Of a DNA stretch of 64,000 bases, positions 1-45,353 are shown in pieces. Source of the stretch: an uncultured Pseudomonadota bacterium (GTDB lineage: Bacteria; Pseudomonadota; Gammaproteobacteria; Methylococcales; Methylomonadaceae). The stretch covers positions 1 through 64,000 of the forward strand of contig CAIXED010000022.1 in NCBI GenBank assembly GCA_903918375.1, in the 5' to 3' direction. The position numbers and the translations under genes were made by a program. Below the pieces are notes generated by a model that worked only from the letters and a program-made list of their open reading frames with translations, did no database searches and was not told the origin of the DNA. Every line of letters starts with the position of its first letter. The first letter of the stretch is position 1.

Positions 1-760
1 GCTAGTGGCGACACAGTGACAGCAGCTCAAGAATACCTGAGCAAAGATGTCTTGGGTGAAGCTGCAAGCACTTTGCAGGTAAAATCTGGTTATAGCGTTA
101 AAGACAGTAGTAACTTTGATATGAGTGCTAACTACGACATTGCCACGCAAACTAGCGCGGGTAGCATTACCCCGAAAGCGGTGACTTTATCAGCCACTAA
201 AACCTATGACGGCAATTTAACCTTGAGCAATGGCCAGCTGACCATTGGCACCGGTATTGATGGTGAATCATTAGGTTTCAGTAGCGCGACGATACATAGT
301 AAAAATGTCGCTGATAACGCGATTAACTATGTTGATAGTGTCAACTTGATTGATGGTATCGGTGGTAAAGCCACTAACTATCAAGCCCCGTTACTGAGCG
401 AGGCTGCAGTTGGTATTAACAGTGTCAATTTAAGCAAAGCAGCATTAACCCTGAATGCCGTGACTGACACAAAAGTTTATGATGGTAATACCAGTTCTAA
501 CCAAGCGGTGACAGTGAGCGGGAATATCAGTGATGACACAGTGACAGCGTCTCAAGAATATCAGAGCAAAGATGTTTTGGGTGAAGGCGGCAGCACCTTA
601 CAAGTCAAAACCGATTACAGCATTAAAGACAGTAGTAATGTCGATATAAGCAGTAACTATGATGTTTCTACTCAAACTAGCATAGGTAGCATTACACCAA
701 AAGAGGTCACTTTAGGTAACGTGATTGCTGATAGTAAAGTTTATGATGGTAATACCGAGG
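1..760 (+). repeat. Internal repeats of the YDG unit (DTVTA-QEY-SKDVLGE...GSITPK...YDGN), two clear copies
   Basis: nt ~10-215 and ~535-760 encode near-parallel peptides (DTVTAAQEYLSKDVLGEAASTLQVK / DTVTASQEYQSKDVLGEGGSTLQVK). Confidence 0.8.
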
Positions 761-1218
761 CCAATATTAGTGCTGGCGAAATCAATGGCACTATTGCTGG
801 TGAAGTATTGAGTATCAGTGGTGTAGGCAGATTTGAGGATGCAAATATAGGTTCTGATAAGACGGTAACCGTTGAAAATGTCGCAACTTTAAATAAGCAC
901 GATGGTACGGGTTTATGGTCGAATTATCGTCTAAGTACAGTTGGAGAATTAACAGCCCTTGCTGATATTACAGAGCCAGCTCCTTCAGTATCTAATAGTG
1001 TTCCTACTGAGACTGATGTATTTGTTAAATATCCAGTAGAGTTGATTAATGTTAGATCTCCAGCTGCTTTGATAAATCCAGTGTCTGCTAATAATGCGAC
1101 AGAAACAGCTCTACCAAGTTTAACTAGAGATAAATCCAAAACTTCAACAAGTCCTGTATCAGTTAGTCGTCAAGATAAAACAGCAGCAGCTGTTGTTAGT
1201 CAGCATACAGGTAAATAG
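1..1218 (+). CDS. C-terminal part of a YDG-repeat filamentous exoprotein/adhesin (5' end outside window)
   Basis: Frame is open from base 1; repeated (K/T)xYDGN and GSITPK motifs typical of YDG/MBG domains; low-Cys, Ser/Thr/Asn-rich secreted composition. Confidence 0.8.
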   Translation, partial: ASGDTVTAAQEYLSKDVLGEAASTLQVKSGYSVKDSSNFDMSANYDIATQTSAGSITPKAVTLSATKTYDGNLTLSNGQLTIGTGIDGESLGFSSATIHSKNVADNAINYVDSVNLIDGIGGKATNYQAPLLSEAAVGINSVNLSKAALTLNAVTDTKVYDGNTSSNQAVTVSGNISDDTVTASQEYQSKDVLGEGGSTLQVKTDYSIKDSSNVDISSNYDVSTQTSIGSITPKEVTLGNVIADSKVYDGNTEANISAGEINGTIAGEVLSISGVGRFEDANIGSDKTVTVENVATLNKHDGTGLWSNYRLSTVGELTALADITEPAPSVSNSVPTETDVFVKYPVELINVRSPAALINPVSANNATETALPSLTRDKSKTSTSPVSVSRQDKTAAAVVSQHTGK

Positions 1219-2618: not shown

Positions 2619-3875
2619 TCATCCGGCCTTGTGCTTAAACGGTAGAACGGTAGCCCCAGCTTTCAAGCTATCCAGATAATCCGCCCAGCTTTGCATCATC
2701 CGGCGGCGTTCTTCAAGATATTGAGCGCGATTGTAAGCGGCTCTAACGGCATCCTTTGGCGCGTGGGATAGTTGGCGTTCAATTGCATCAGGACTCCATC
2801 CCTGTTCGTTCAATAACGTGCTGGCTACAGTTCGGAACCCATGAGCGGACATAGTTTCCTTGTCATAACCTAGCCGCCTTAACGCCGATCTAATCGCGCC
2901 ATCTGACATTGATTTACCATTGTCATCTCGACATGGAAAAATATATTGCTGATTGCCAGTAAGCGGTTTAATGGCTTCTAGTATCTCAACGACTTGAGTA
3001 GATAGCGGCACAATATGATGAAAATCCACCTTACTAACAATAGGCCGCCACTCTTTAGCCTCCAAATCAATATCATCCCAAAGCATTTGCCGTATTTCGC
3101 CGAGTCTTTGAAATAGTAGCGGCGACAATCTAAAAGCCATTCTAACGATAAAAGTACCGTGATAATTTTGAATATCTCGAAGTAATTTACCGACTAGCTT
3201 AGGGTCGATAATTGCCGCATTGTGTTTAACCTTATGGGCTGGAATCTGCTTTGCTACAGGATGTGCTGGGTTGAATTCGGCTAGGTTATGAACAATGGCG
3301 TAATCAAATATTGATGTTATTTCAGCGTGTAGTCTGTGGGCTGTTTCAAGTTGCTGTTTATCAATTAAGGGTTTTAATGCCGCCAAGATTTCAAACGATT
3401 TGATTTCAGTAATTGATTTATTGGCAAGGGTAGGGAAGGCGTGGGTTTTAATTCGGCTGACTTTTTTGATATGGGTTTGAGGCTTGGTTAGATGCTCAAG
3501 TGATTTAAGCCATTGTTGGGCAACGTCGGCAAAACTGCCCAGTACGGGTAAACCTGCTTTTATTCGGTCGGTATTTTGTTGGTTTTGTTGAATAGTTTGT
3601 TTAACTGCTTTTCGCTTATCGGCTGGATTTATGCCGCTGTTAATATTTTCTCTAGCTATGGTCGCTTGTTGTCTGGCTGATTCCAAACTGGTAGCCGGAT
3701 AATTGCCAAACGCTATTTTGTACCTTTTGCCTTCAAAGGTATAAACAAAACGCCATAACTTTGAGCCTTTGGCATTGATGTGTAAAGCAAGGCCGCTACC
3801 GTCGTTAATACTGTAATCTTTTTCTTTCGGCTTAGCTGTTCTGTAAACCAAGTCTTTATTGAGTTTCTCAGCCAC
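2619..3875 (-). CDS. Tyrosine recombinase/integrase, P4 family (DUF4102-type N-terminus)
   Basis: N-terminus 'DLVYRTAKPKEKDYSINDGSGLALHINAKGSKLWRFVY' plus catalytic 'SAHGFRTVASTLLNEQGW' and 'QLSHAPKDAVRAAYNRAQY'. Confidence 0.95.
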   Translation of the reverse strand: MAEKLNKDLVYRTAKPKEKDYSINDGSGLALHINAKGSKLWRFVYTFEGKRYKIAFGNYPATSLESARQQATIARENINSGINPADKRKAVKQTIQQNQQNTDRIKAGLPVLGSFADVAQQWLKSLEHLTKPQTHIKKVSRIKTHAFPTLANKSITEIKSFEILAALKPLIDKQQLETAHRLHAEITSIFDYAIVHNLAEFNPAHPVAKQIPAHKVKHNAAIIDPKLVGKLLRDIQNYHGTFIVRMAFRLSPLLFQRLGEIRQMLWDDIDLEAKEWRPIVSKVDFHHIVPLSTQVVEILEAIKPLTGNQQYIFPCRDDNGKSMSDGAIRSALRRLGYDKETMSAHGFRTVASTLLNEQGWSPDAIERQLSHAPKDAVRAAYNRAQYLEERRRMMQSWADYLDSLKAGATVLPFKHKAG

Positions 3876-23832: not shown

Positions 23833-24753
23833 ATGCGTATTAGTACAAATAGTATTTTTGAAGCAGCAAGTAATAGATTAAATGACTTGCAAACTAAGAT
23901 TGATAATGTATCTCAGCAAGTATCAACTGGACGTAGAATTCTTAGTCCCTCAGATGATCCAGTATCAGCTGCTAAAGTAATTGAAATGCAAACGTCTCAG
24001 GCAATCAATAGCCAATTAGCTAAAAATATTGCACATTTAGAGGCTAATTATGGGGTGGTTGATGCAAAACTGACCGGCATAATTGATACTCTACAAGGCG
24101 TTAATGAGCATGTAATAAGCGCAGCTAATAGCACTTATAATGATAATGATAGAGCTGCGATAGCAATTACTTTACAAGGTTATTATGACCAATTATTGTC
24201 TTTAGCCAATTCATCTGATGGTGCTGGTCATTATTTATTTGCGGGTAAAAAAACTGATGCCGAGCCTTTTGTTGTAAATCAGGATGGCGCTGTTAGTTAT
24301 GTTGGTAGCTCATCACAAAGTTATATACAAATCGATAACTCTAGGGTAATGGAAACCAGTGTATTGGGGAATCAATTATTTTCTGATGGCGATATTTTTA
24401 ATAAATTACAAACAGCGATAACGGCTTTAAAAAAACCTGCTACTGAGCAAAATGCGAATGAATTGCGTAAAACAGCTTTAGATGCGTTAGCAAGTAGTTT
24501 TGCTACAACTTTTTCCATGGTAACTAATGCTCAATCTTATATGGGTATTAAGTTAAAGAGTTTAGATAATGTAAAATCACTAAACGATAATATCGATTTA
24601 CAGTTTTCTCAGAATTTATCAAGATTACAAGATGTTGACTACAATAAAGCAATATCTGATCTTAATAAGCAACAGCTGGTGTTGCAGGCTGCGCAAAAGA
24701 CCTTTGCACAAACTAGTCGATTAAGTTTGTTTGATTATATAAATTTCAATTAA
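23833..24753 (+). CDS. flgL: Flagellar hook-associated protein 3 FlgL
   Basis: 'MRISTNSIFEAASNRLNDLQTKIDNVSQQVSTGRRILSPSDDPVSAAK'. Confidence 0.96.
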   Translation: MRISTNSIFEAASNRLNDLQTKIDNVSQQVSTGRRILSPSDDPVSAAKVIEMQTSQAINSQLAKNIAHLEANYGVVDAKLTGIIDTLQGVNEHVISAANSTYNDNDRAAIAITLQGYYDQLLSLANSSDGAGHYLFAGKKTDAEPFVVNQDGAVSYVGSSSQSYIQIDNSRVMETSVLGNQLFSDGDIFNKLQTAITALKKPATEQNANELRKTALDALASSFATTFSMVTNAQSYMGIKLKSLDNVKSLNDNIDLQFSQNLSRLQDVDYNKAISDLNKQQLVLQAAQKTFAQTSRLSLFDYINFN

Positions 24754-36706: not shown

Positions 36707-37138
36707 TTATGAGCTAACAGCCGAAAATTCTTTAGATGGGATTTGATTGTTGCTAGCTATCGAAGCCCAGGCACTTTTAATTTCATTCATTAATTTGTAG
36801 ACCTCGTCTAATAGCTCAACTTGATTATTCAGATGAGCATTAAGTAGTTGTTTAATCATATAGCTATATAAATTATCCAAATTACTGGCTAATTCCCCAC
36901 CTTGCTCAAAATTTAGGCTACTGCGTAAACCACTGTCGATTAAGGTCACTGCATGAGCAATTGCATTGCCTTTTTCAACAAGCTCTTGTTTTTGCATGTG
37001 ATGTTTGGCTTTAACAATTGCAACCAAGGTCGCGTCCAGTAGCATTGAGATTAATTGATGCGGATTTGCGCTATAGGCTGAGGTTTCTAGGCCGACATTT
37101 GCATAAGCCTTAGCGGCATGATTGCTATATCTATTCAT
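36707..37138 (-). CDS. fliS: Flagellin chaperone FliS
   Basis: 'AAKAYANVGLETSAYSANPHQLISMLLDATLVAIVKAKHHM'. Confidence 0.96.
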   Translation of the reverse strand: MNRYSNHAAKAYANVGLETSAYSANPHQLISMLLDATLVAIVKAKHHMQKQELVEKGNAIAHAVTLIDSGLRSSLNFEQGGELASNLDNLYSYMIKQLLNAHLNNQVELLDEVYKLMNEIKSAWASIASNNQIPSKEFSAVSS

Positions 37139-39184: not shown

Positions 39185-39568
39185 CTAAATATTATTTCTG
39201 TAGATCAAGCCTTGTTTCGGGTCATTAGCTCGGCTAAAGTCGATTGCTTGTTCACTAGGTATTTGGCGAATAATTTCGTCAGTTTTAGTATCTTTCACCA
39301 CAATCACCACTTGCCCACCATTGTCGCGAACATCGAATTCAACCGAAATATTATGACTTTTAACTAAATCGTTAAGCGTATTAGCCGCCTTTTGAATATC
39401 TTGGATTGGTGCCGGTGCATTTTGGGTTACCGAAGAAGCTGCGCTATCTGAATTTCCTATAAGGTTTAGCTTATCTAATAACGCATCGGTTGCTTGGGGT
39501 TGGGTATTGGTCGTTGCACTCTTAGTTGTCGAGTATTTAGTTGTACTATCAATTGACTGAATATCCAT
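39185..39568 (-). CDS. flaG: FlaG family protein
   Basis: 'AANTLNDLVKSHNISVEFDVRDNGGQVVIVVKDTKTDEIIRQIPSEQAIDFS'. Confidence 0.93.
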   Translation of the reverse strand: MDIQSIDSTTKYSTTKSATTNTQPQATDALLDKLNLIGNSDSAASSVTQNAPAPIQDIQKAANTLNDLVKSHNISVEFDVRDNGGQVVIVVKDTKTDEIIRQIPSEQAIDFSRANDPKQGLIYRNNI

Positions 39569-39624
39569 AAGGATATACCTCATAAAAAATTTAACGATAC
39601 CTTGGATTCCATGGCTTTAATGTC

Positions 39625-39674: not shown

Positions 39675-41408
39675 TTATTTCAATAGCACCATTACGTTAT
39701 TAGGTAATTGGTTTGCTTGTGCCAACATTGCCATACCCGCTTGTTGCAAGATTTGAAAACGTGCCATTTGTGCTGTTTCTGCCGCGTAGTCAGTATCTAA
39801 GATATGACTTTTCGCGTTTGTGAAACTCTCGTTTGAAACTGTCAGCGTAGAAATTACCGCTGATAGACGGTTTTGAGTTGCACCTTGTTGAATCTGGGCA
39901 ACGTTAACCTGTTTCATAGCTTCGTCTAGTTGTTTGATCGCATCTTGAGCATCAACCTGGGTCAGAATATTGACACCATTAGAGTTACTAGAAATCAAAC
40001 TTTCTGTGCTTCCAGCGGTGGTGTAAGAAACCGATTGTACTGCTGATAATTTAGCCGCTGAGCCATTAGCAGCAAAATCGGCACTAACTAAAGCATCAGC
40101 TGCATTGGTATAAACGAACTGACCAGCTTGTAGATTTGTATCCGTAGTAATCAGGCTGCCATTTTCATCACGAAATTTGGTGTTGCTAGAGCCTGTTATG
40201 GCGAATGTTTCGTCTGATTTGATTTGATATTGTTTCAAACCGTTTACTTCGTTAGTTGCTGTACCCTCAATAGTGACAACTGCTTGCGAGGTATTGGCAG
40301 CAACAGTAGGTGCTTCAATGCCACCGTATTCAACGACAGAGGCAAGAACAGCTTGTTCTGGCAAATCATTCCACTGACCATTGGTGTACAGTTGAACCGC
40401 ATCTTCATTGCCAGCGTTATTGGGTTCGCCACCAGCCCAGTTAGTCCAACTTAATTTGCCTGTTTCTGGCGCGCCTGCATATGCAAATTGACCTTCTGTT
40501 ACAGCATCATTGGCGTTGATCCATACAGATTGATTTTTAGTTCTAGCAATATCAGTGACAAAAGCGTTTTCGCTAGCGCTTGTAATTGTTGTCAAATAAC
40601 CTTTTTGATCAGCTACACCAGCGATACCTGTAATTGATTGCGAAGCGGCATTGCTAATTGCATCGCTTGTGCTGCCCGCAACTGCAGTTGGTGAACCATT
40701 AGTTGCATCGAATTTTTTGCCGCTAGCAATAAATTCATAGATGTGACCATTGGCTGCATTAAAGAAAACATTGCTTGCTCTTGGATCATTCGCACTAGCA
40801 AGGCTTGATTTCCAAGTGTCAAATTGGGCTTGAGTAAAGGTGGTTGCTTTAGGAGCAGCTGTGGTAGTTGCTGTTTGTGCTTGTAGACCTGTGCTAACTG
40901 CCGCAGACACTTTATCTAAATTAATGCCTTGTAATTTAATCGTGTCGTATGCGGTGGTGTCAGAACCAATTTGAATGGTGATCGATTTATCGCTCAACGC
41001 ATTATTACCGTTGAAATAGGTATTGTTTTTAATACGACCTATCTCTTGTTGTAACTGTAAGAATTCAGCGTTCAACAATTCTCTATCCGAGGTACCGTTC
41101 GTACCGTTAGAGGCTTGAACCGCTAATTCGCGCATTCTTTGCAAGTTATTGTTGATTTGAGTCAGTGCGCCTTCAGCTGTTTGAGAGAATGAAATTGCAT
41201 CGTTGGTATTGCGAATTGCAACCGTTTGACCGCGAATTTGTGATTCAAGACGATTAGAAATAGTCAAACCTGCGGCATCGTCTTTCGCACTGTTTACACG
41301 CAAACCAGTTGATAAACGTTGAATTGATTGAGCAAGTGCGTTCTGAGATTTAGTCAGATTATTCTGAGTATTCAAAGACGCCAAATTGGTGTTAATGAAA
41401 GAAGACAT
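39675..41408 (-). CDS. fliC: Flagellin with C-type-lectin-like domain in the central variable region
   Basis: N-term 'NTNLASLNTQNNLTKSQNALAQSIQRLSTGLRVNSAKDDAAGLTISNRL' and C-term 'QQGATQNRLSAVISTLTVSNESFTNAKSHILDTDYAAETAQMARFQILQQAGMAMLAQANQLPNNVMVLLK' are flagellin D0/D1; middle has GYLTTITSASENAFV...WTNWAGGEPNNAGNEDAVQLYTNGQWNDLP...VVEYGG. Confidence 0.95.
   Translation of the reverse strand: MSSFINTNLASLNTQNNLTKSQNALAQSIQRLSTGLRVNSAKDDAAGLTISNRLESQIRGQTVAIRNTNDAISFSQTAEGALTQINNNLQRMRELAVQASNGTNGTSDRELLNAEFLQLQQEIGRIKNNTYFNGNNALSDKSITIQIGSDTTAYDTIKLQGINLDKVSAAVSTGLQAQTATTTAAPKATTFTQAQFDTWKSSLASANDPRASNVFFNAANGHIYEFIASGKKFDATNGSPTAVAGSTSDAISNAASQSITGIAGVADQKGYLTTITSASENAFVTDIARTKNQSVWINANDAVTEGQFAYAGAPETGKLSWTNWAGGEPNNAGNEDAVQLYTNGQWNDLPEQAVLASVVEYGGIEAPTVAANTSQAVVTIEGTATNEVNGLKQYQIKSDETFAITGSSNTKFRDENGSLITTDTNLQAGQFVYTNAADALVSADFAANGSAAKLSAVQSVSYTTAGSTESLISSNSNGVNILTQVDAQDAIKQLDEAMKQVNVAQIQQGATQNRLSAVISTLTVSNESFTNAKSHILDTDYAAETAQMARFQILQQAGMAMLAQANQLPNNVMVLLK
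40323..40769 (-). other. C-type-lectin-like domain segment of the flagellin (aa ~214-362)
   Basis: CTLD signature: NGHIYEFI, GYLTTITSASENAFV, WxNWxxGEPNNxGNED, NGxWNDLP, VVEYGG; no cysteines. Confidence 0.85.
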
Positions 41409-41486: not shown

Positions 41487-41513
41487 TTAACGGGCTTGCT
41501 CGCAAAAACTTTA
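41487..41513 (-). promoter_or_regulatory. Sigma-28 (FliA) promoter for fliC
   Basis: Minus strand TAAAGTTT-N11-CCCGTTAA; -35 perfect to consensus, spacer exact. Confidence 0.88.
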
Positions 41514-43252: not shown

Positions 43253-44003
43253 AGCGGATAGTTTGATGCCAGTAACTGCTCATACGTTCTTGAATTAAGC
43301 TAGGGTGCTCACCTTGTCGGATAGACAAAAATGCATCCGCTAACATTTCCCTTTTTAGCACTTCAATCTGGATATGTTGTTTAAGCTTGTTAGCAATCGG
43401 TAGGAAAATTAAGTTGGCGATACCAACGCCGTAAATAGTCGAGACAAAGGCAACGGCAATGCCTTGTCCAAATAAAGCCGGCTGAGAAATGTTTTCCATA
43501 ATATTGGTCAAACCTAACACAGCACCTAGAATGCCCATGGTTGGCGCATAGCCGCCAGCCGCTTCCCAGACTTTCACTGCCAAGTGTTGATCACGTTCAA
43601 AGCTGTTGATATCAATGTCTAAAATTTCACGGATTATAGTGGGATCAATACCATCAACAACCAGCCTTAAACCTTTGCTAATAAAAGGGTCTGGATAGTC
43701 GGAAATCATATGATCCAGTTTTAAGAAGCCGTTGACCCGAGCGGTTGAACTCCAAGTTTGGATGGTGTTGATTAATTCACTATAAAAGTCATCGTAAGGG
43801 GTAAAGGCTCGATGCAACATTCGTAAGCCATGTAACAGGTTAGCAAAGCCATTTTGCAGTAGAACTGCGCTAAAAGTACCGCCCAATACAATGACTAATG
43901 CCGAGGGTTGTATGATTGAAAGTACATGGCCGCCTTCTAGCATTTGGCCAAACAATATTGCTAAAAGACCTAGCGCTAGGCCGATTAAACTTCCCCAGTC
44001 CAT
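43242..44003 (-). CDS. motC: Flagellar motor stator protein MotC/MotA
   Basis: 'SLIGLALGLLAILFGQMLEGGHVLSIIQPSALVIVLGGTFSAVLLQ', 'VWEAAGGYAPTMGILGAVLGL'. Confidence 0.93.
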   Translation of the reverse strand: MDWGSLIGLALGLLAILFGQMLEGGHVLSIIQPSALVIVLGGTFSAVLLQNGFANLLHGLRMLHRAFTPYDDFYSELINTIQTWSSTARVNGFLKLDHMISDYPDPFISKGLRLVVDGIDPTIIREILDIDINSFERDQHLAVKVWEAAGGYAPTMGILGAVLGLTNIMENISQPALFGQGIAVAFVSTIYGVGIANLIFLPIANKLKQHIQIEVLKREMLADAFLSIRQGEHPSLIQERMSSYWHQTIRYDS

Positions 44004-44716
44004 TTTTGCTCCTTTAAGATGCTTCTGATACGGCCAATTGCTTGACTATGAATTTGTGAAACTCTTGATTCTGTCACGCCCAATATCGCGCCGATTTCTT
44101 TGAGGTTAAGTTCTTCTTGGTAATAAAGACTCATCAATAATTTTTCCCGCTCAGGTAGTGCGTCGATGCTATTAACCAACGCCGCTTGAAAGCCTTGTTC
44201 GAGTAATTCCTTTAGCGGGTCATCGTTTTGTTCAGATTGAAAGCGCTCAAGAAACTGGTCGCCGTTGTCATCATTTTGAAAGTCCTCGATGTATAGCAAT
44301 TGGTGGCCGCTATTTTCGGTGAGGAATTTTTGGTAATCCGTTATCGATAAATTCAGTTGTTGTGCGATTTCGGCTTCGGTTGGATGGCGTTGATTTAGGC
44401 GTTGTAGTTCGCTAATTGCCTTTTCAATTTTTCGCATATTGTCACGAACTGTTCTGGGTAACCAATCCATATTGCGTAGTTCATCGAGGATGGCGCCGCG
44501 AATGCGTAAGGTGGCATAGGTTTCAAATTGTGCTTGTTGGGTATTTTCAAAGCGTTGAAGTGCATCAATCAGTCCTATCATGCCAGCCTGAATTAAATCA
44601 TCTTCTTCGACATTAGCCGGTAATTTGGCTTTGATTTGATGGGCGATTTTTTTGACCAGCGGGATATGAAGGCTAAAAATAGCGTCTTTCTGAGAACGGC
44701 CTTTGGCATCATACAT
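43985..44716 (-). CDS. fliA: Flagellar sigma factor FliA (sigma-28)
   Basis: 'HIPLVKKIAHQIKAKLPANVEEDDLIQAGMIGLIDALQRFE', 'LYYQEELNLKEIGAILGVTESRVSQIHSQAIGRIR'. Confidence 0.97.
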   Translation of the reverse strand: MYDAKGRSQKDAIFSLHIPLVKKIAHQIKAKLPANVEEDDLIQAGMIGLIDALQRFENTQQAQFETYATLRIRGAILDELRNMDWLPRTVRDNMRKIEKAISELQRLNQRHPTEAEIAQQLNLSITDYQKFLTENSGHQLLYIEDFQNDDNGDQFLERFQSEQNDDPLKELLEQGFQAALVNSIDALPEREKLLMSLYYQEELNLKEIGAILGVTESRVSQIHSQAIGRIRSILKEQKWTGEV

Positions 44717-45353
44717 AACGACTTCCCAAAACACTGTTGTGAATGGTGGAGGAGGGCGTTGTTAGCAAGGTTTCCAAAACCTGGCTGAAAGCCTTTGCAG
44801 TCGCAGTATCGGATTGAGTATCTAATGATTGATTGCTGTGTTGCCAATCAACCTCGTTTGGAATCCAGCCTAGCGAAACTAAATTTAAGCCTAAAAAATC
44901 ACGGCTGGTGCGAATCAGATTTTGTTGAATGAGCGAGGCTTGTTCACTGCTGGTGTCAATGACTAATAATTTGAAAACCTGATTACTTAAGTATTTATGT
45001 AATGTTTTGAGTTTTAAATAAGTGGATTTGATTGCTTCAGCATCGGCTGTTGTTATGACAACAATATCGCTGTCCGATAAAGTGTTGATGAGTGAGTGAC
45101 TGAGCGGGTTTAGCTTTACATCAATTAAATAGACTTTGTTTGCTGAATCACCTGTTGGCTTATTGGCATACTCGACTAAATCAAATAGCTCAACATCGAA
45201 ACCTTTGTTGATCAATTGCCAAGCAAAATTAAGCAAAAATCCGCGACTGTGTGCAGAACTAAGTTCAGATAAAAAACAAATTTGCTGCTTAGAATGACTT
45301 GCCAATAGGCGGCGAAGTCCGGCTGCTTGGTCGAGATGTTGATTAACTGACAT
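44709..45353 (-). CDS. FlhG/FleN-like MinD-family protein lacking a Walker A motif
   Basis: N-term 'DQAAGLRRLL' (FlhG motif); 'YLIDVKLNPLSHSLINTLSDSDIVVITTADAEAIKSTYLKLKTLHK' matches the MinD/FlhG core; located between flhF and fliA; no GKGGxGKS/T. Confidence 0.8.
   Translation of the reverse strand: MSVNQHLDQAAGLRRLLASHSKQQICFLSELSSAHSRGFLLNFAWQLINKGFDVELFDLVEYANKPTGDSANKVYLIDVKLNPLSHSLINTLSDSDIVVITTADAEAIKSTYLKLKTLHKYLSNQVFKLLVIDTSSEQASLIQQNLIRTSRDFLGLNLVSLGWIPNEVDWQHSNQSLDTQSDTATAKAFSQVLETLLTTPSSTIHNSVLGSRYV

Follow-up and report, generated by a model that had tools for sequence, protein, structure and literature searches.

A C-type lectin-like domain inserted in the sole flagellin of a Methylococcales bacterium

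Introduction

The stretch of DNA analysed here (64,000 nucleotides, referred to as the window) encodes a flagellin whose centre had been read as a C-type lectin-like domain (CTLD), which raises the question of whether the domain is a genuine lectin fold and what a flagellar filament built from such subunits might do. A flagellar filament consists of thousands of subunits, and the centre of a flagellin is normally its most variable part. As the first-pass annotation of the sequence stated, domain-bearing flagellins are a known class, and flagellinolysins (PMC5595980, PMC7643111), in the accounts drawn from these two papers, are scattered across unrelated bacteria and display their activity along the filament. 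The text of PMC5595980 counts 61 types of domain in the central regions of flagellins, and its printed top ten includes the metallopeptidase, vWFA, Sialidase and Peptidase_M26 domains and does not include a C-type lectin domain. The CTLD member of this class is without description in the literature searched, although the supplement of PMC5595980 may list it.

A sole flagellin with a domain between intact ends

The window belongs to contig 22 of a draft genome (2.79 Mb, 82 contigs, 99.8% complete) that carries a pmoA-type gene (AMO family, 1.8e-127), and its host is read as a Methylococcales methanotroph. The flagellin gene, its parts and its neighbours are listed in Table 1. The normal flagellin ends described in the annotation are both recognised by Pfam above cut-off, Flagellin_N over residues 5-141 (4.4e-42, 143.9 bits against a cut-off of 26.6) and Flagellin_C over residues 492-576 (4.8e-17, 62.5 bits against 23). 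With the flgL model TIGR02550 the protein scores 79.8, below the cut-off of 127.2, and it is not identified as FlgL. It is also, as had been claimed, the sole flagellin of the genome: the PF00669 search gave one other match only, in a 307-residue open reading frame at 23833-24753 (match at 23839-24255), which we read as a putative FlgL. Lectin_C is the sole Pfam domain between the flagellin ends, and an HExxH metallopeptidase insert of the flagellinolysin kind was not found there.

Genes for MotA/B, the export ATPase, FliK and FliR also lie within the window. The FliA-like promoter upstream of the flagellin gene matches 14 of 16 consensus positions; across the window, six of the 127,940 positions tested score at least 13. 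The filament cap protein FliD is long, with 666 residues against 463 for the FliD-like protein adjoining a flagellin in a congener (G019, L036:776-2167), and Pfam assigns no name to the additional region.

Table 1. Positions in the window of the flagellin gene, its parts and neighbouring flagellar features
Feature	Position	Strand	Basis or remark
Flagellin gene with CTLD insert, 577 aa	39675..41408	-	Pfam Flagellin_N, Flagellin_C, Lectin_C; single copy
N-terminal D0/D1, aa 1-175	40884..41408	-	alignment with 14 congeneric flagellins
Linker and short helices before CTLD, aa 176-213	40770..40883	-	missing from short congeneric flagellins
C-type lectin domain, aa 214-362	40323..40769	-	profile, PDB-sequence and fold matches
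Principal Ca2+/sugar site E328, N330, E335, N347, D348 (GEPNN...NED...WND)	40365..40427	-	SP-D and CTLD alignments
Residues aligned with auxiliary Ca2+ site, D301, E305, N331, D336	40401..40508	-	SP-D alignment
Post-CTLD region, aa 363-483	39960..40322	-	low-confidence model, partly beta
C-terminal D1/D0, aa 484-577 and stop	39675..39959	-	Pfam, congener alignment
Sigma-28 (FliA)-like promoter, TAAAGTTT-N11-GCCCGTTAA-type	41487..41513	-	~80 nt upstream of flagellin ATG
fliA-like sigma factor, candidate reader of flagellin promoter	43985..44734	-	putative, from sequence reading
flaG	39185..39583	-	Pfam FlaG 6.7e-17
fliD filament cap, 666 aa	37161..39161	-	Pfam FliD_N/FliD_C
fliS flagellin export chaperone	36707..37138	-	Pfam FliS 1.5e-32

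The insert has a C-type lectin fold with a complete principal site

In the full protein, Lectin_C (PF00059) matches residues 268-350 with 1.4e-9 and 39.0 bits (Pfam cut-off 22.6), and the excised lectin region scores 42.8 bits against the same cut-off. A phmmer search against PDB sequences returned surfactant protein D (SP-D) at 7.5e-16, conglutinin at 2e-14 and MBP-A at ~5e-12. Since both the profile and the PDB sequences match, the CTLD is not a chance motif match. The CTLD call of the annotation thus passed the profile search, its placement of the domain at residues 214-362 of the 577-residue frame (window 40323-40769, minus strand) is correct, and all the motifs that it quoted are found in the protein. 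The fold agrees as well. The full-length flagellin, modelled with CTLD relatives in AlphaFold2, has a mean pLDDT of 68.5, and block means across residues 191-360 are 78-98, with 84-98 over most of residues 193-362, which include the CTLD. In Foldseek searches of the PDB the top matches to this model are exclusively CTLDs and no unrelated fold, with the CRD of conglutinin at TMt 0.91 and rmsd 1.8, MBP-A at TMt 0.86 and SP-D at TMt 0.69-0.79. In the linker, helices are modelled at residues 193-205 and 209-213, and residues 363-483 have pLDDT mostly below 50 and no homologue among 369 class-mates. With few relatives behind the model of D0/D1 and the outer region, pTM is 0.43, and the position of the CTLD on the filament, presumably outward-facing, is taken by analogy.

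In alignment with SP-D, all five ligands of the principal site are present, and the auxiliary-site residues are retained save for Asp to Asn at 331; we take the aligned residues to be equivalent to the Ca2+ ligands of animal CTLDs. An unusual extra stretch of ~30 residues follows the first strand. There is no cysteine in the whole flagellin, and the disulfides of animal CTLDs are missing. The annotation had noted this absence, rightly, and had seen in it a fit to an exported filament subunit. The absence is not specific to such subunits, since 90 of the 161 non-flagellin bacterial CTLDs compared are also free of cysteine, although nine of nine flagellin CTLDs are without it. Similarly, EPN is retained as stated, and the label 'mannose-type' that came with it is to be held lightly, because EPN is the common state among the free bacterial CTLDs compared (133/161, in a set partly selected by the EPN motif). 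EPN and WND, usual in the bacterial CTLDs compared (motif-selected in part), may have been inherited.

The lectin domain is an addition to a shorter flagellin

Congeneric flagellins are mostly open frames of ~284-310 residues. The closest flagellin, that of a congener (277 residues, 61% identity over the shared ends), is without the insert and runs from D1 straight to D1, where the window flagellin has ~310 residues, and the CTLD is therefore an added domain. Alignment with congeners places the insert at the usual D1/outer-domain junction. G+C is even over all parts of the gene and thus gives no sign of very recent insertion. When the insert alone was searched in 369 class-mates, the window itself was the sole match; among the class-mates searched, the window version of the CTLD flagellin is present in one methanotroph only and has no orthologue. 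Two other congeneric flagellins are long, one of 404 residues and one of 600 (L034:959-2761, G033:C84), the latter with a long, repetitive, Ala-rich and apparently helical insert; the searches made matched no lectin in either of them. The 600-residue flagellin gene adjoins a transposase-like open reading frame. In a Methylovulum sp. (G304, L149), a flagellin in a 714-residue frame has repeated Flagellin_IN-like segments, and a genome from the family of the window genome (G197) encodes a two-lectin protein (L068).

A second lineage of CTLD flagellins in Micavibrionaceae

A search for further flagellins with a CTLD, which the annotation had proposed, was productive: at least eight genomes of Micavibrionaceae (Alphaproteobacteria) hold an orthologous CTLD flagellin of ~445 residues. 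A scan with a narrow CTLD alignment over one genome per species (GTDB) confirmed 343 relatives, and among the best 80 that were kept was a 446-residue flagellin with a CTLD from an alphaproteobacterial MAG of this family (L100). NCBIfam flagellin models match it down to 1.5e-47, its Lectin_C match is above cut-off and its Flagellin_N match, at 23.6 bits, is slightly below. Seven more came from a search of 104 Micavibrionaceae genomes, all seven with both Lectin_C and Flagellin_N above their cut-offs; the genome samples overlapped and one scan was motif-driven, and these counts are not the true prevalence of CTLD flagellins. One of the eight (G308, L157:1117-2097) is split by a frameshift, which is either a sequence error or the mark of a decaying gene. 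In the AlphaFold2 model of L100, the CTLD, with pLDDT of 86-98 over most of its length, lies between the long first D1 helix and the next helix, an insertion point that differs from that of the window flagellin, and the Foldseek matches of the model are CTLDs. EPN and WND are present in all eight of the Micavibrionaceae flagellin CTLDs.

A genome with one of these CTLD flagellins (G303) also encodes a Laminin_G_3 flagellin (L150:1471-3042), and Laminin_G_3 occurs in 3 of 20 Micavibrionaceae flagellins scanned, that of G303 included. The fold of Laminin_G_3 is concanavalin-A-like and likewise frequent among glycan-binding domains. When 339 class-mates and 337 genomes of the class of Micavibrionaceae were surveyed with Lectin_C, no new CTLD flagellin appeared among the loci fetched, and in viral contigs a single-sequence CTLD query gave ten pattern matches and no relatives. 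The CTLD matches in phages and plasmids were set aside, being other kinds of protein by annotation.

The lectins appear to have been recruited separately and, in Micavibrionaceae, to be held by selection

A tree of 59 rows places the window CTLD together (87/83) with CTLDs among which are that of a congener and others of the family; its likeness is to lectin proteins secreted within the order to which it belongs, Methylococcales. In the same tree, the Micavibrionaceae flagellin CTLDs are nested in a 98/99-supported set, most of whose members are CTLDs from the adhesins of that group itself. Flagellin CTLDs form one group in 0% of 200 bootstrap trees, the branch separating them is starred, and in the AU test their single origin has p 0.073. 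Given these three results and the different insertion sites, the origins seem to be separate, and two independent recruitments of a CTLD into flagellins are the best reading of the sequences.

Between the Micavibrionaceae orthologues, dN is 0.12-0.32 in the CTLD versus 0.34-0.54 in the C-terminal part of the flagellin, with synonymous sites saturated or nearly so. As the CTLD changes more slowly than the C-terminus, a reversal of the usual pattern, selection appears to hold the lectin, which argues for a selected function of the CTLD in the Micavibrionaceae flagellins.

Discussion

We consider it reasonably probable that the inserted CTLD makes the filament of this sole flagellin a polyvalent, probably Ca2+-dependent, adhesive lectin. 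In this reading, a secreted-type bacterial CTLD was inserted at the normal D1/outer-domain junction of the methanotroph's only flagellin; the flagellar type III system would export the product, which would polymerise via its intact D0/D1. Every subunit would then bear an outward-facing, probably Ca2+-dependent glycan-binding site, with thousands of these along a filament. Weak binding by single CTLD sites turns strong when polyvalent, and a filament of this kind would be weak per site and strong in sum, so that a swimming cell may adhere to polysaccharide, be it its own or foreign exopolysaccharide, biofilm, or algal or bacterial surfaces. A polyvalent lectin filament is thus plausible, and it is strengthened by the second, apparently independent lineage of CTLD flagellins with its strongly constrained lectin.

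It is also conceivable, if rather unlikely, that the CTLD serves a structural or antigenic role in the outer region: as a Ca2+-stabilised substitute for D2/D3 in which sugar binding is not selected, it would act on filament stiffness, subunit contacts or recognition by phages and predators. Flagellin outer regions do vary freely, with many unrelated domains, in the account given in the text of PMC5595980, and the 600-residue flagellin of the congener G033 holds a different, helical insert. However, the window CTLD has the full principal Ca2+/sugar site, and the Micavibrionaceae CTLDs keep EPN and WND and are more conserved than the flagellin C-terminus, while sister flagellins of that family carry Laminin_G_3, itself of a fold common in glycan binding. 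CTLD folds often bind ligands other than sugars, and this fact together with the extra ~30 residues after the first strand of the window CTLD would suit a protein or other non-glycan ligand, which we find improbable nonetheless, since the canonical EPN and WND sugar site is retained and non-sugar CTLDs, to our knowledge, typically lose it.

There is very little to commend the notion that the lectin stretch is an assembly or binning chimera, foreign to the real gene: the genome is indeed a draft of 82 contigs, but a single open frame spans all regions with even G+C across them, the gene lies inside an extended cluster of flagellar genes, and eight other genomes hold a fusion analogous to it. 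Variable proteins of diversity-generating retroelements (DGRs) share the C-type lectin fold, and the CTLD might be a DGR target made hypervariable through a reverse transcriptase. We rejected this origin, whose probability is close to nil, because the genome has no RVT_1 match and no repeat of at least 25 bases was found around the flagellin gene; furthermore, the window domain belongs to the Ca2+-site Lectin_C kind.

The polyvalent lectin filament may be compared with several known systems. Like flagellinolysins, the window flagellin holds a functional domain between intact Flagellin_N and Flagellin_C, a lectin fold in place of the metallopeptidase; unlike them, it is the sole flagellin of its genome, and the Micavibrionaceae lineage uses another insertion site. 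With the other domain-bearing flagellins in the text of PMC5595980 it shares a class defined by foreign outer domains. The CRDs of animal collectins (SP-D, conglutinin, MBP-A) resemble the window CTLD in fold, in the five Ca2+/sugar-site residues and in EPN, whereas the window CTLD lacks cysteines and a collagen neck and has the additional N-terminal stretch, and its multivalency would come from the filament. Nearest to the flagellin lectins, lineage by lineage, are the free CTLD proteins of Methylococcales and Micavibrionaceae (PEP-CTERM proteins and large adhesins), which are separately secreted and, unlike the CTLD flagellins of the window and of Micavibrionaceae, are not flagellins.

If the lectin reading is right, a sugar-reading function is built into every subunit of the filament, which gives the proteolytic flagellins a binding counterpart and makes the filament a natural scaffold for polyvalent display. 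That the fusion apparently arose twice, at different sites, hints at a general way for bacteria to recruit secreted lectins onto flagella. Cultured Micavibrio prey on bacteria, and we raise, tentatively, the possibility that at least two lineages independently made their flagella into Ca2+-dependent lectins and that the CTLD and laminin-G filaments of Micavibrionaceae recognise glycans of prey or partners.

Towards the start of the contig, the window also encodes a partial YDG-domain surface protein (16-1218, plus strand) and a phage-type tyrosine integrase (2619-3875, minus strand).
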